A DNA stretch of 64,000 nucleotides, taken from positions 6,016,501-6,080,500 of the forward strand of contig NC_091975.1 of assembly GCF_036711975.1 (NCBI RefSeq), in the 5' to 3' direction. Shown here piece after piece: positions 48,529-57,046 of this stretch. Position 1 is the stretch's first letter; each line of letters begins with the position of its first letter. A program made the position numbers and the translations under genes. The notes beneath the pieces were generated by a model. It was not told where the DNA came from. It searched no databases and saw nothing but the letters and a program-made list of their open reading frames with translations. Origin of the DNA: Onthophagus taurus. Lineage: Eukaryota; Arthropoda; Insecta; Coleoptera; Scarabaeidae.

Positions 48529-51500
48529 TTATTGTTTTTGATACATCTGTCGAAGAACTGCGAAATACGAATAAGCACTCCTTAAAATCTAAAAAAGAAT
48601 AATAATTAAACATGTATTATTAAATTATTAAATAATTAAATCATTACAGACATAAACGTGGCTAACGAAAGAGTAACAAAATAACCAGCTGTTAAAATAA
48701 TCGGCCTCTTCGCTCTTTCCATTATAATAAAAAGCATCTTTTTATTTTTAGTGTTAAAATCGGTCCAATTCGACATGTAACAACATTGCACCAAATCGGA
48801 ACTTTTCTCCAAAATGATTTGACCGAACCATTCGTAAATTGCGATTTGGAAAACCATCGTTATAAAGTAAAATGTCATCAAGAAAAATCGCAAACTTTTC
48901 ACTGGGGTCTAAAAACGATCGAAACGTTACGTCTCTTTATATGTAGAAAAATTAAGTTTTTTGCTAACAATAAGAAATTGAATTCCCGTCATGCACAAGA
49001 TAATCACACCGGAAATCATTTGGAAGAAAATTCCGTAAGTGAAAATTTCTTCGACGCGTTGAACGAAACTGAAAATTAAAAAAAAAAGAAATAGAAATAA
49101 TAAAATATAGAAGACGATACTACTAAATGTTTGGAAGATTGTTGATGACGACATTGACTTTGAACATTGTTGGATACCAGGGATGGGTTTGAAAGTTATT
49201 CGAGATGACGTGAATGTTGAGATGTAGAATAACACTAGTCTACAAAAAAAAAATCATAAAATGTACAGGGTGGTTCAAATACGATGTCCAAATAGGCTAA
49301 CTCGAAAACTATAAGAGTTAGAAGAAAAGTAGCTGACATGTCATGATCTCGGTTTTCGAGAAACTGCTAATGCCGAAAACCTCATAGCGCTATCGTCTTT
49401 TGTTTTTCCGCTAGAGGCCAAAATTGAAAATATCGTAAAACCCGCAAATGTAATTATCTTGGTTATTATTATAGGTGGAGTATTATAACTAAGACATTAT
49501 ATGGACACTTTTTTACAGAGAATTTAATGACGTAGTCAAAAAAATTTTGTCGGTTTTAGATTTTGAGATATTATCACAATTTTCGTTTTTTTAAATGGAA
49601 ACAACCACTGATAATTCGCTTAATAAATTCGTTATTTTTTTCTGATTACAAAAATATAGGGTTTGACAGGTCTATTTCTTATTGTTTTAGAATAAAACTA
49701 AAAATAAACTTTTCTTTTAGTGTTGTCGAAGAAATTAAATTTACAGTTTCCTGTAAATTACGGTTCTATAACTAAAAATTAAAAAAACATATTTTTGATA
49801 TTTGAAACAAATATATTTGTTGAACTGTTTAATCTATATATGTTTTACACAAAAGTTGGAATAGATTGCATTATTTCACATTGTTTATTACGATTTAATA
49901 TTATTTTTAAATGACTTAATAAATTATCGATAGATGGCGCTCATATGTTTTTTTTTTAATTCAAATAAACATAGCAACATTTGTTTGTATTCAAAAATTT
50001 TCTGAAGTGTCACTTTAAAAATCCCGTTTTTAAGATCAATTACAAAAATTTTAAAACGTTTGACATGTTAGAATGTTACATATTAAAAAATTATTTGTTT
50101 TTAAATACCAGAACTTATATTCGTATTTAATTGTTAACTTTTTAGATTTTACCTACCGCCCCGTAACTTACAGGAAACTGTAAATTTAATTTCCTCGACG
50201 ACACTAGATGGAAATTTTATAAAAAAAGGTTTATTTTTAGTTTTATTCTAAAACAATAAGAAATAGACCTGTCGAACCCTATATTTGTAATCAGAAAAAA
50301 ATAACGAATTTAATAAGCGAATAATCAGTGGTTGTTTCCATTTAAAAAAACGAAAATTCTCATGATATCTCAAAATCTAAAACCGAAAAATTTTTTTTGA
50401 CTATGTCATGAAATTCTCTGTAAAAAAGTATCCATATAATGTCGTAGTTATAATACTCCACCTATAATAATAACCAAGATAATTGCACTTATTGGTTTTA
50501 CGATATTTTCAATTTTGGCCTCTAGGGGAAAAACAAAAGACGATAGCGCTATGAGGTTTTCGGCATTAGCAGTTTCTCGAAAAACGAGATCATGACATGT
50601 AAGCTACTTTTTTTCTAACTCTTATAGTTTCCGAGTTAGCCTATTCGGACATCGAATTTGAACCACCCTGTACATCTGACGCCACTGTATTTTTCTTATG
50701 TAGTTTGGTCCCCTAAACCCAAAAATCACATTTAAAATTTTTTCTATGGATACGTTTTGGAGCTATGACTTTTTTTTTTTTAAAGGTACTTTGACTATTT
50801 GCAGCATATCTCGAGTTAGAGATGACCGATCTGGTGGTGCTATTCATCAAATTAAAGAGTATTGTATAGCACATAATAAATGGTATTAATGCTTATTCCA
50901 ATCGGTTCGGTAGTTTTAAAACAATGACCCATAATATGTGAAAAAAGGATTTTTTTAGACAAAATGTGAACCAAAAATTCATTCAATATCCGTGTAGAGT
51001 CGTAGAAAAATTCTTTTTTACCTTCTACGTAAAGTTTGCTCTTTTTAGAAGACAATACGCAGGATACGCAATATGTACGCAATATGTACGCAGGATGAGA
51101 ATCGGTGGAGAAATTACCAAAAATTATGATCATTTGTGAGTCAAAGTGCCAACATCCAGCTTTTCCTGTTTCTGTAACTTTTCTCAAAAAGCACGAAATA
51201 CAGTTCTTCATTCAGTTTATTTTGATTGTAACACTTAGGTATTTATAAAATAGTATGCACAAGTCTTAGAAATAAGTTTGCCCCCCGCTTTGCCTTCTGT
51301 TTCTTTGAGAATCCGTCTCTCTTATGAGGAACCAGATATAGTCTCCCATCATTCTTTCATCCCAAATTCCCTGATAACACCGCTCAATGTTCTTCATTTG
51401 TTGGTGGAATCTTTCACCATGTTCGTCACTTACGTCACCAAGATTCTCCGGGAAGAAATTTAAGTGTGAGTGTAAAAAATGAATTTTTAGAGACATATTT

Positions 51501-54500
51501 ACACCTGTTGGAAAAAATTAAAATAAAATTAAACGTATAACTGAAAATAATGAAATAACGTGTATTTGTAAACTGCCTACATCCCCATAGCTTTTGAAAT
51601 GTACATCGAAATTAAATTCAGAATAAAAAACGTGTCATTCCTTCATTGTTTTTTATTCTGAATCAAAATGTCTCTTAACTCGGAACCTGCAGGGATGCCG
51701 GTACTTTACGGATACCCGGAATAATAATAATAATGATCTACACCCATTTTTGCATAATTCTGAAGCAAATTTTCAACAATTGTCTCGTAATTCGGGCTTT
51801 TATTGTTTCCAAGAAAATCAGAAACAATTAACTGAAACGAATTCCAGGCTGCAGCTTCAACGGATGATAAATAGGTTTGAAATTTGTCATCTTTTAAAAG
51901 TTTTTTTATTTGTGGACCGTTGAAAACACCTTCCTTGATTTTTGCGAATGAAAGATTTTCAAATAAGGTTCTTAAATAAGCAAACGGTTGGCCTTCTATA
52001 TCCAGCGCTTTCACAAAATTCTTGAAGAGTCCAAGTTTAATATGTAATGGCGGTAGAAGGATGTTTTCTTTTTTAATAAGAGGCAAGTATTTAATGTTGC
52101 CCTCGCCGAGGGTGTGGCTTTTTCTTTCAGGCCATTGCTTCCTCTTATAATGGTGTTCCCTTGCGCGGCTGTCCCAAAGACAAAGGAAACAACAATATTT
52201 CGTGTAGCCGCTTTGTAAACCACATAACATGCCTGTGACTTTAAATCGGTTCAAACTTTCCAGTCATGGTCTTCGTAATTAAGAGATTTTAATAGTTTAA
52301 CCATTGTTTCGTACGATTCTTTGGTATTTACAGCATGCGCGATCGGAATTGATGGTTTTTCATTTCCATTATGCAAGAGAACTGCTTTCAAACTACTTTT
52401 ATTGCTATCAATAAATAACCGCCACTCGTGTGCATTATAAGGCTGGCCAAGCTCCTCGAACAAACCGGGAATGTCTTTGCAAAAGCATATGTTATCAGTT
52501 CACGTATAATACTTTGTGTAAGGCCTGTCACGGTCTCTGTAATATGTTACTTTAACACTCGTATCCAAAAAGTGATATTGCTTCATACGAGAAACATGTA
52601 ATTCTGCTTTCTCCTTTGACAGCTCCAAGTCTCTCACCCAATCATTCAGTTCTTCCTGTGTTAGAAGATGCTGTTCATGCTGTCCTTGACATTCAGTTAA
52701 ATCACTTCGGAAATCTGACGTGTCAGTACTTGAGGACTGAGATATAACGGAAGTTTGGGACTGAGATAAATCAGGGCAGTTGGGGATGGGAAGTGTATCT
52801 GAATGCGGAACTGGAAACGTGACAGATGGTACATTTGCATAAACCCATCCCAACCCAACCCAACCCAATCATTCAGTTCTTCCTGTGTTAGAAGATGCTG
52901 TTCATGCTGTCCTTGACATTCAGTTAAATCACTTCGGAAATCTGACGTATCAGTACTTGAGGACTGAGATATAACGGAAGTTTGGGACTGAGATAAATCA
53001 GGGCAGTTGGGGATGGGAAGTGTATCTGAATGCGGAACTGGAAACGTGACAGATGGTACATTTGCATAAACCCATCCCAACCCAACCCAACCCAACCCAA
53101 TCATTCAGTTCTTCCTGTGTTAGAAGATGCTGTTCATGCTGTCCTTGACATTCAGTTAAATCACTTCGGAAATCTGACGTATCAGTACTTGAGGACTGAG
53201 ATATAACGGAAGTTTGGGACTGAGATAAATCAGGGCAGTTGGGGATGGGAAGTGTATCTGAATGCGGAACTGGAAACGTGACAGATGGTACATTTGCATA
53301 AACCCATCCCAACCCAACCCAACCCAACCCAACCCAATCATTCAGTTCTTCCTGTGTTAGAAGATGCTGTTCATGCTGTCCTTGACATTCAGTTAAATCA
53401 CTTCGGAAATCTGACGTGTCAGTACTTGAGAACTGAGATATAACGGAAGTTTGGGACTGAGATAAATCAGGGCAGTTGGGGATGGGAAGTGTATCTGAAT
53501 GCGGAACTGGAAACGTGACAGATGGTACATTTGCATAAACCCATCCCAACCCAACCCAACCCAATCATTCAGTTCTTCCTGTGTTAGAAGATGCTGTTCA
53601 TGCTGTCCTTGACATTCAGTTAAATCACTTCGGAAATCTGACGTATCAGTACTTGAGGACTGAGATATAACGGAAGTTTGGGACTGAGATAAATCAGGGC
53701 AGTTGGGGATGGGAAGTGTATCTGAATGCGGAACTGGAAACGTGACAGATGGTACATTTGCATAAACCCATCGCATATTTTTCCCAATTCCGGTTTGTTT
53801 ACTTAGGCAAAAGTAGCAGTCGGTTGTATGACAAAGTGGTTCTTTCCAAATCATTGATAACGTTAAAAAAAGTTATAAATTATAAAGTATTTTTAACATG
53901 AAATACATACCCTGGCGCGCCGGAGGCCCATCCACTAAGATTTATATGACAATTAAGACATAAAAAACTTGGTGTCCATTGTTCTTGAAGATTCTCAGCT
54001 GGTATTCCAAAATATTGGAGATAATTTTCTTGTACCGAATTAGTAAATTTACGTATGTTTTTCTTGACGACATATTCACCACACACATAATGCTGTGGAA
54101 TACCAGCTGAATATGCTGAATATGGAACTCGAATGAATAACTTTAGCAATCTTAGTGTCCACGAAACCTTCCCTTACAGTGGGTACAGTGGGGGTTTTTA
54201 TGATGCTCACTTTTTTCTTAACATTCCGGGAAAAAACCTTTTCATTTGTCCACGAGAAACGTATTTATTTTAATATTGTTCAAGTAGGTAAAAAAAGATG
54301 GGACAAACCTGTGTGCGAAGAACCTTTGTTCTAAAACCGATAGTTTTCCAAGAATAATAAAATGCACTGGTACCTCAAATATCCTTTTTCAAGTAAACTT
54401 AATTCACTGAGTAAAACGGCAATATACGTTAGGAATACCGAAAAATATAGAAACAGGAAAAACCTGGGCATCTTCCTATTGTAAAAGTACAAACCTTATG

Positions 54501-57046
54501 TAAAAAATAAGATGGAATTTTTGCGGCTCTCCAAGGTGTTTTGTATTGTGATTTTTGATTAAAAAAACCGTTTTTCAATTCAAATATCCAATAAAAATTG
54601 CAGTATTCCGTTTAAAATAACGAAGTTGTAGGCTATTTCCGGTACACTGGATGTGGCAGCCATCATGAAATTATTTTAAATCGAAAGATTGGGATGAATA
54701 GAATAGCTCCTATACGTAAAATCTCAGAAACGTATGAAACATGAAACCTAAAAATTTCTAACGGTATACTTGCGCGGAATTTCTTGTACAGGGTGTCCAA
54801 ATTTCGATGGGTTTGCAGGGTATCTCAGTTATTATGAAAGATAGAAAGTTGCGGCTTTCGCGAACCTGAGCTACTTTTTTGTGAAACTTACAATGGTGCA
54901 AACCAAATTTTCATAGCCCTCTTCGTTTTTGATATACAGGGAGTGTTTCAAAATTTACGATTTTCAGACACATCTTATATCTCGGCTATGCGAAAACGTA
55001 AACACGGGTTCTAATAGATTTTTTCACGTAGAACCCAATGGTGCACGTAGAATTTTTCTAGTCATCACGGTTTGTGAGTTATAAAGAGTTAATTATTTTA
55101 GAAGTTGAGTATTCAGTATTTGGGTTGTGTTTATAACTCAAAAACCGTGATGACAAGAAAAATTCTACGTGCACCATTGGATTCCACGTGAAAAAATCTA
55201 TTAGAACCCGTTTTTAGTTTTTTACTGAGTTTCCGGATAGCCGAGATACAGGAGGTGTCTGAAAATCGTAAATTTTGAAACACTCCCTGTATATCAAAAA
55301 CGAAGAAGGCTATGAAAATTTGGTTTGCGCCAGTGTAAGTTTCACAAAAAAGTAGCTCAGGTTCGCGAAAGCCGCAACTTTCTATCTTTCATAATAACTG
55401 AGATACAATGCAAACCCATCGAAATTTGGACACCCTGTACAAGAAAAAGCTGTGCTCTCACATATAGAAGATCATAATTTTTGGTAATTTCTCCACCGAT
55501 TCTCACCCTGTGTACCTTATTGTCTTCTAAAAAGAGCAAACTTTACATAGAAAGTAAAAAAGAATTTTTCTGCGACTCTACACGGATATTGAATGAATTT
55601 TTGGTTCACATTTTGTCTAAAAAAAATTCTTTTTTCACATATTATGGGCCATTAGTTTAAAACTATCGAACCGATTGGAATAAGCATTAATACCATTTAT
55701 TGGCTATACAATACTCTTTAATTTGATGAATAGCACCACCAGATCGGTCATCTCTAACTCGAGATATGCTGCAAATAGTCAAAGTAACCAAAACGTATCC
55801 ATAGAAAAAATTTTAAATGTGATTTTTGAGTTTAGTGGACCAAACTACATAAGAAAAATACAGTGGCGTCAAATGTACATTTTATGATTCTTTTTTTGTA
55901 GACTAGTGTAATCAGGAATGTTTGACACGATGTTGAGATATGCTAGGAATGATGCTATGAGATGTCTGGGATGATGCTTATGTGTGGTATCCGACCATGT
56001 AACCATGTCGATGGCTAACAGAGACAATATTAAACCAATATCATGCCTGGTACACGGATGCTTTAAAGGCAGTTGGATCCGGAGTAGGCATTCATTTCAG
56101 GAATGGTATGAAGGTGATGTTTATGGGTGTCTGCACTCATATTGAATTGATAGTGATGAAAACTCAGATTGGATAATCTTGAGATGTACCAGGGGCAATT
56201 ATTAAAGGATGTCTGTACTCAACTCTAAAATGGCGTTGTGATACTTAACACATTTTTGTAAATTCTGCTCAATTTCTTCATCATCGTGACCTAAATGATT
56301 CTCAAGGTAATCTTTAAGTATTTCAAATTGAGCGGAAGCGACGTTAACCAAAGCCACACAAATACAATCCAAAGACATGTTGTTGTAAGCGTTTAACATA
56401 AAACAAACCAGCTCGTATATAAATTGACCGTAAAGATATTTCTCCGGATCGAAACCGAAATAAACCGGAACCATTAAATGTTTAGTTATAAACGGAAAAA
56501 TCGAATACATCGACGCCGTAAACAACGCGATTCCTTGATAAACACGGGCGATAATGAAGTGGTATTTTTCCATATCGGTGATGAAATGATCTTGAGAGAC
56601 TTTATGCGATTTAAAAATGTCGGTTTCTAAGATGTCTTCGAGTTCGTCTAGATATGGTTTGTGGTAAACGAAAGAATACAGTTTTAATACGTTTCCGAAT
56701 TGCATGAAGAAGAAGTATAAAGCTTCGAAAATTTTTTGTATTTCTCTGCGATCCATGTACATTTGCCAAATCATTGTAAAACATAGAGATGTTGAAAATG
56801 AGAGGGTTAAGTAACGCATGAATTTTTTGAATGGCTTCATCGGTTTTCCTTTGTAAATGTAAATTCCGGTTAAGAAAAGAAGATATTGCTCAGTGGCAAA
56901 GATTGATTGAAATGTTGGCCTCTAAAAAATATTAGATTTATAATGGTTATTAAATTAAAATTTTTTAAAATTACTTTTTCATTTTTTTCTTCTTTCTCTT
57001 TTTTATCACTTTCAACGTTAACAATTGTAGTTATTTCCTTTTCCAT
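48529..57046 (-). CDS. Odorant receptor (7tm_6), tandem copy 2, split by a 7.2-kb intron
   Basis: Exons are 56975-57046, 56224-56921, 48969-49068, 48648-48908 and 48529-48588, totalling 1191 nt, or 396 aa. It starts with a charged leader (MEKEITTIVN..), then RPTFQSIFATEQYLLFLTGI, MSLDCICVALVNVASAQFEI and FVQRVEEIFTYGIFFQMISG. The end is YEWFGQIILEK, LFIIMERAKRPIILTAGYFV and RSAYSYFAVLRQMYQKQ. The second intron (49069-56223) holds a complete 6.7-kb transposon. Its donor is GTTGAG, a weaker match, so splicing efficiency is a question. It is related to copy 1 but differs in 3' intron positions: no intron at the EK/SS site, and one before ILRSAYSY. The ORF is otherwise intact. Confidence 0.87.
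49266..50670. mobile_element. Foldback/MITE element, arms ~510 bp, TA target duplication
   Basis: Ends are CAGGGTGGTTCAAATACGAT and the near-complement ending TTGAACCACCCTG, with TA on both sides (49264-49265 and 50671-50672). The arms (about 49266-49780 and 50160-50670) are nearly perfect inverted copies; the spacer is ~380 bp. No ORF was seen. It interrupts the left arm of the CACTAG element, and the uninterrupted right arm shows the pre-insertion sequence (TGTACA intact). Confidence 0.92.
51266..54149 (-). pseudogene. Transposase-like gene of a widespread unnamed family (DDE-type, zinc-binding), decayed
   Basis: Minus-strand order: 54149-53919 has Cys-rich CGEYVVKKNIRKFTN and SFLCLNCHINLSGWASG. 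53854 leftward has KEPLCHTTDCYFCLSK and WVYANVPSVTFPVPHSDTLP. 52650-52500 has LTQEELNDWVRDLELSKEKA. 52463-52251 has EWRLFIDSNKSSLKAVLLHN. 52254-51732 has TDLKVTGMLCGLQSGYTKYC, then CFLCLWDSRAREHH and LLPPLHIKLGLFKNFVKALD. After an intron at about 51513-51731, the last exon has MSLKIHFLHSHLNFFPENLG and VSDEHGERFHQQMKNIERCY. Conserved D (LFIDSNK), D (TDLK), CxxC..HH and E (DEHGERFH) suggest a DDE catalytic core. I recall close relatives as uncharacterised arthropod and cnidarian proteins. Decay signs are a TGA near 52500, a 1-base frameshift near 52250, and a minisatellite expansion at 52641-53790. Confidence 0.72.
52641..53790. repeat. Minisatellite: five ~230-bp units, each ending in a TTGGG run
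   Basis: Unit starts (ATCATTCAGTTCTTCCTGTG) lie at 52641, 52868, 53100, 53337 and 53564, so lengths are 227, 232, 237 and 227. Lengths differ by multiples of 5 because of a CCAAC/TTGGG pentamer run at each junction. Each unit duplicates transposase codons around SQSQTSVISQ and LTQEELNDWV. Because lengths are not multiples of 3, the frame shifts from unit to unit. Confidence 0.95.
54789..55437. mobile_element. Small foldback/MITE, arms ~310 bp, TA target duplication
   Basis: Ends are CAGGGTGTCCAAATTTCGAT and its complement, flanked by TA (54787-54788 and 55438-55439). The arms mirror each other almost to the centre (about 55095). Inner landmarks are AGGTTCGCGAAAGCCGCAAC and ATTCTACGTGCACCATTGG. 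It lies just inside the right arm of the CACTAG element. Stretch 54150-54786 between the transposase gene and this element holds nothing I recognise. Confidence 0.9.

Follow-up and report, generated by a model that had tools for sequence, protein, structure and literature searches.

Positions 49233–55908 of the Onthophagus taurus sequence analysed here (64,000 nucleotides, positions 6,016,501–6,080,500 of contig NC_091975.1, below called the window) are occupied by a DNA transposon that opens with CACTAG, closes with CTAGTG and is bordered by a TAA target-site duplication. It is very probably a decayed Chapaev3 element with a transposase predicted to be of the RAG1/Transib type, an assignment made by published hallmarks. 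Chapaev3 transposons go back to Kapitonov and Jurka 2008 (as cited in PMC4411706), and according to Zhang et al. 2014 (PMC4079192) they have CAC/GTG ends, TWA duplications always between A and T, C(2)C, LH and H(4)H motifs, and genes with one or two exons. Merrow, Garfield and Conan are counted there as Chapaev3, with Garfield_BM having 2,289 bp and a transposase of 556 aa. The beetle elements are alike in the CAC/GTG ends, in the TWA duplication, which in most cases has A before it and T after it, in a transposase of about 556 aa, in the C(2)C/LH/H(4)H motifs and in having short internally deleted copies, and the members of one subfamily (subfamily 2, 2.06–2.19 kb) compare in length with Garfield_BM. 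Since the listed Chapaev3 features are present, the elements are regarded as a new Chapaev3 family and not as a new superfamily.

The sequence CACTAGTCTACAAAA is located at 49233 on the plus strand, and the same sequence reversed closes the element at 55908. A 15-mer of this end, allowing one mismatch, occurs 126 times in the genome (56 plus, 70 minus), against 32 times (18 plus, 14 minus) for a control read backward. Of the 126 places 100 were listed, and they include 22 inverted pairs spanning no more than 10 kb. Of these pairs 21 were examined (20 fetched and the one in the window, leaving out C6:28032695-28034301). They belong to subfamily 1, and 19 of the 21 are flanked by an exact 3-bp duplication. 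With all four subfamilies taken together the duplication is exact in 30 of the 32 loci showing both ends (TAA 15, TTA 13, TAG 2), the background frequency of TWA being 0.075, and 25 of the 30 duplications sit between A and T; for one of these, locus L063, the sequence at hand covers a single side.

For 28 loci the two flanks were joined and matched against the retrieved stretches of the genome, and three of the joined pairs span the junction in a paralogous copy of a host repeat, L012 and L056 in the stretch of L010 and L021 in that of L035. The three matches are 73, 81 and 88% identical over 113–259 columns, and in each of these empty sites the TAA or TTA that is doubled at the filled site occurs once. 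L012 belongs to subfamily 1 and L056 to subfamily 2, and they are inserted at the same trinucleotide of the same host repeat, indicating that both subfamilies read the same target. At the level of sequence comparison, the copies demonstrate precise insertion with a 3-bp TWA duplication in several lineages and a fairly recent amplification. An assembly artefact for the whole element was dropped as an explanation in view of the empty sites and of the paired ends that recur at many places.

A genome search with the catalytic part of the transposase gave at least 153 matches, with scores computed for 150 of 828 candidates. Of the eight strongest matches, seven are located between paired ends, and the eighth is within 1 kb of a single exact end. 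The ends fall into four subfamilies, beginning with CACTAG, CACTGG, CACAGG(GGAAC) and CACAGG(CCGAC); a common pattern, CAC[TA][AG]N4ACA, was noticed by eye. Subfamily 2 has the ends CACTGGACAACA and is 54–56% identical in the query region; both ends are found in seven of nine loci, all seven with a 3-bp duplication, and L048 and L051 show one end. A recount of these ends that did not require a duplication agrees with the first scan, which did. In subfamily 3 one end is CACAGGGGAACA and the other CACAGAGCAACA or a variant of it; three of five loci have both (2.56 kb), with TTA in all three, and L061 and L065 have one. Subfamily 4, with the ends CACAGGCCGACA, has both in one of three loci (L063, 3.27 kb, duplicated) and one in L064 and L066. 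The six single ends in subfamilies 2–4 all adjoin TAA or TTA. Uninterrupted whole frames are present in L052 of subfamily 2 and in L059, L060 and L062 of subfamily 3. In addition, L057 has one subfamily-1-like end beside TTA and L044 has one end, and no end was found at L037, L041, L042, L047 and L067 in the 3.3–3.6 kb searched around the gene, which is below the element length of 4.2 kb. Judged from sequence, protein, termini and duplication thus go together in four subfamilies.

The residues of the motifs CFLC (C334, C337), PLH (H383) and HFLHSH (H491, H496) are invariant in 84 sequences, and so are the putative catalytic residues D261, D315 and E513. The AlphaFold model (pLDDT 91.7) shows an RNase H core of the RAG1/Transib type, and the nearest solved folds are RAG1 and HzTransib, with a strong structural match at 10–14% identity in the structural alignments. 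The protein is therefore predicted to be a DDE transposase with an RNase H core in the RAG1 layout. Two homologue searches gave at least 1,835 and at least 3,021 matches (the best candidates were scored), and the named entries among the 120 homologues listed are "uncharacterized" or "hypothetical protein". The analysis provides this large protein family with a name, with defined ends and a rule for its target, and with empty sites and a modelled structure. The O. taurus protein P0001 matches the query at 96% identity, along 83% of the query. The protein P0002 from the bee Anthophora retusa is 78% identical to the beetle query, compared to about 50–56% (catalytic part) for the other subfamilies of the beetle, and this likeness might be followed as a lead for horizontal transfer.

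Several proposals of an initial annotation, made from the letters of the window alone, agree with these results. CACTAG ends with TAA on both sides were confirmed at 49233 and 55908 and recur genome-wide, and the copy does tie a protein to termini and duplication, as it had suggested. The protein was taken there for the DDE transposase of the element, which its position between paired ends and its RNase H fold model bear out, and the protein does have the C(2)C...H arrangement known from CMC transposases. Further copies of the end with duplications and empty sites, which it recommended looking for, were found, and the structure prediction it recommended gave the RAG1/Transib-type core, so that a fold lacking an RNase H core, which it had listed as a refuting outcome, was not seen in the model. 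It had also named two observations that would speak against the linkage, namely gene copies lacking the termini and termini around unrelated frames. Genes are linked to ends in four subfamilies; six loci of the other subfamilies show one end and five loci show none, in stretches of 3.3–3.6 kb. Open frames were read in nine loci, and in two of these, L009 (C1:18122485-18126684) and L021 (C7:20187078-20196573), frames of other elements are found between the ends, by eye Penelope-like in the former, and Gypsy-like and tyrosine-recombinase-like in the latter. Chapaev3 pieces are also present there, and the foreign frames are therefore taken as probable nested insertions.

A transposase of about 560 aa with a predicted RAG1/Transib-type core would bind the ends, possibly as a dimer held by its N-terminal domain, and cut just outside CAC. 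The excised element would then be inserted for the most part at ATWAT sites, where a cut staggered by 3 bp would give the TWA duplication. A nick at the 5' end of the element followed by a hairpin on the flanking DNA might be expected from the resemblance to RAG1 and Transib, which is its only basis.

Some observations weigh against the Chapaev3 assignment. The A..T context is missed in 5 of 30 insertions (L014, L016 and L018/L024/L025, the last three being one insertion), the two failing subfamily-1 pairs, L015 and L028, have no direct duplication (the left end of L028 is AAC), and the subfamily-1 gene has two introns, compared to the one or two exons in the account of PMC4079192. Subfamily 1 differs from the described Chapaev3 elements in its length of about 4.2 kb and its inverted repeats of about 820 bp. 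Two scans of viral contigs, aimed at the published bracovirus copy as a labelled Chapaev3 sequence for comparison, gave no relative.

The initial annotation had considered the group unnamed and undescribed, that is a CMC-related superfamily in which ends and motifs resemble those of CMC elements and the transposase forms a lineage apart. No Pfam model passes the cut-off with the query, neither the protein nor its profile retrieved a relevant sequence match from the PDB, and the listed homologues are without informative names, as would be expected for such a group. However, the hallmarks given for Chapaev3 in PMC4079192 are found, the TWA duplication and the C(2)C/LH/H(4)H motifs among them, and absence from Pfam is uninformative on Repbase, and we therefore consider an undescribed superfamily improbable. 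Transib ends and recombination signal sequences begin with CAC, and the target duplication of Transib is 5 bp. A true Transib or RAG-like element instead of Chapaev3 would explain the strong fold match to RAG1 and HzTransib. Kapitonov and Koonin 2015 (PMC4411706) treat Chapaev3 as one clade within a broadly defined Transib superfamily and ascribe to it a Chapa zinc domain that RAG1 has as well. However, the structural alignments reach only the low identity given above, the RAG1 catalytic model is not among the Pfam matches, and 30 of 32 loci have a 3-bp and not a 5-bp duplication, so that this reading was dropped as highly improbable. The elements differ from Transib, RAG1 and amphioxus ProtoRAG in the same duplication, in the lack of a significant sequence match to solved members, and in an N-terminal zinc domain, which canonical Transib does not have according to the same source. 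A 2025 treatment (PMC12730594) groups the lineages as CMCT, with Chapaev3 as a sublineage of Chapaev. The fold model lends structural support to the grouping of Chapaev3 with Transib and RAG1, which had been proposed from sequence. PIF/Harbinger elements also duplicate TWA, but with CAC..GTG ends, a C(2)C insertion, RAG1 and Transib as the nearest solved folds, and no Harbinger transposase among the Pfam matches, an element of that type is hardly credible and was dropped as well.

The N-terminal domain of this Chapaev3 transposase has three CxxC pairs, and its fold model matches best the ZAD of M1BP (64 residues at 1.5 A, 22% identity), the top four Foldseek chains all being ZAD. It differs from the ZAD of insect ZAD-C2H2 factors in that a third CxxC pair and a His follow, and in being fused to a transposase and not to C2H2 fingers. 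The best zf-AD (PF07776) score is 24.7 bits, below the Pfam cut-off of 28 bits; scores of 45.4 and 36.9 bits were obtained for two genuine ZADs. Among three Onthophagus N-termini zf-AD matches two (E 0.0015 and 0.019) and not the third, and an N-terminal consensus containing X had no domain match. Of 34 N-termini, 13 match the RAG1 model RAG1_imp_bd (PF12560) at E values of 10 or lower, the best being 0.0012. The same model matches four whole proteins among 84, and a single one in a second set of 46. A profile-profile comparison with four ZADs is weak (probability 2.9%, P 0.016), with a score of 18.0 against a mean of 10.8 (sd 2.2) for shuffled profiles, one of 200 shuffles scoring as high. 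A search for further ZADs gave five short proteins, and the alignment with four of them is too ragged for use; searches of PDB with the N-terminal profile and with one N-terminus retrieved neither ZAD nor RAG1. Against a ZAD relationship speak the unrelated BIR domain, which matches 11 of 34 N-termini (best E 0.0069), and the second set, where zf-AD matches 2 of 46 proteins with a best E of 0.37. The model plausibly indicates a ZAD-like domain that might serve as a dimerisation module. That the zinc domain of Chapaev3, the three-motif N-terminal zinc-finger region of RAG1 and ZAD are homologous, with the ZAD-C2H2 factors derived from a CMC/RAG-lineage transposase domain, is a tentative and rather doubtful idea; if true, the dimerisation domain of an ancient transposase of that lineage was taken over by a zinc-finger protein, at the origin of the largest family of insect transcription factors. 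No link between ZAD and transposases was found in literature searches, where long result lists were covered at the top. To our knowledge, the predicted RAG1-type fold and the ZAD-like domain are additions to what is known of Chapaev3.

Five near-full-length copies of subfamily 1 (L012, L015, L017, L022 and L023) are 4.13–4.21 kb long, giving a native element length of about 4.2 kb. Four of them align end to end with L023 (4,177 bp) at 96.2–97.7%, and in a joint alignment of the five the pairwise difference is 1.0–1.7%, indicating that the amplification is fairly young. Their inverted repeats are 782–819 bp, with 88–95% identity within a copy. Shorter paired copies, of 570–587 bp (L018, L024, L025) and 1.6 kb (L011, L028), look like non-autonomous, internally deleted derivatives. 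L018, L024 and L025 (on contig C5 and twice on C14) are the same insertion of about 580 bp with common flanks, and are segmental duplicates of one event. In two of the near-full-length copies the host flank recurs in inverted orientation at the opposite end of the element. At L015 (C3:18592387-18596593) this inverted flank measures 664 bp at 99.2%; at L017 (C5:12473456-12477641) it measures 407 bp at 99.0%, and beyond it come 94 bp of transposon end and an undamaged outer TAA. This suggests that the template was switched while a break at the element was being repaired, or a fold-back error of the assembly.

Compared to L023, the window copy is composed as follows.

49230..49232, no strand: left target-site duplication TAA, context A-TAA
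49233..49267, plus strand: outer 35 bp of the left terminal inverted repeat (CACTAGTCTACAAAA...), 100% identical to L023 positions 1-35
49266..50670, no strand: nested fold-back element (CAGGGTGG...CCACCCTG) with TA on each side, foreign to the transposon and absent from L023
50669..51131, plus strand: inner part of the left terminal inverted repeat, matching L023 positions 30-465
51266..51505, minus strand: transposase exon 3, with HFLHSH as the H(4)H motif and DEHGERFHQ with the proposed catalytic E
51736..52856, minus strand: transposase exon 2, catalytic part, with FIDSNK (D1), DLK (D2), CFLC and LPPLHIKLG
52636..53858, minus strand: coding minisatellite of five copies, spaced by 227, 232, 237 and 227 bp, with CCCAA pentamers as joints
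53910..54089, minus strand: remnant of transposase exon 1, N-terminal zinc domain, start-codon region deleted
54789..55437, no strand: second nested fold-back element (CAGGGTGTCC...GGACACCCTG) with TA on each side, inverted arms and ends read
55436..55908, minus strand: right terminal inverted repeat, closing ...TTTTGTAGACTAGTG, from the end sequence and comparison to L023
55909..55911, no strand: right target-site duplication TAA, context TAA-T

The ends at 49233 and 55908 given in the initial annotation are thus right, with the native length being about 4.2 kb and not the 6.7 kb they enclose. The inverted arms, put there at about 450 bp, are the terminal inverted repeats of the element itself; they are about 475–500 bp in this copy, and the left one is split by the nested fold-back of about 1.4 kb, whose edge bases are ambiguous by 1–2. 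The rest of the left repeat of about 820 bp is deleted. The multi-exon gene likewise stands, as three exons on the minus strand, as suggested by homologues whose reading continues ungapped, but in a broken copy. The start codon is lost with a deletion corresponding to L023 positions 1172-1286, exon 2 has two in-frame stops and a frameshift at D2, the second catalytic Asp motif, and a 227–237-bp stretch of exon 2 is repeated in tandem as the minisatellite, with the spacing shifted in 5-bp steps by the CCCAA pentamers. Because of these defects and the nested insertions the window copy is dead, unable to encode a transposase, and would be mobile at most in trans.

Both nested fold-backs have CAGGGTG..CACCCTG ends and are flanked by TA, and they possibly represent one non-autonomous group. 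The transposon is flanked by pieces of an odorant receptor at 48636-49253 and 56202-56921 on the minus strand, collinear on that strand and corresponding to 7tm_6 positions 226-309, 186-230 (a piece under the Pfam cut-off) and 2-193. As ordered 7tm_6 pieces are present on both sides, the transposon is probably located inside an intron of one odorant-receptor gene.
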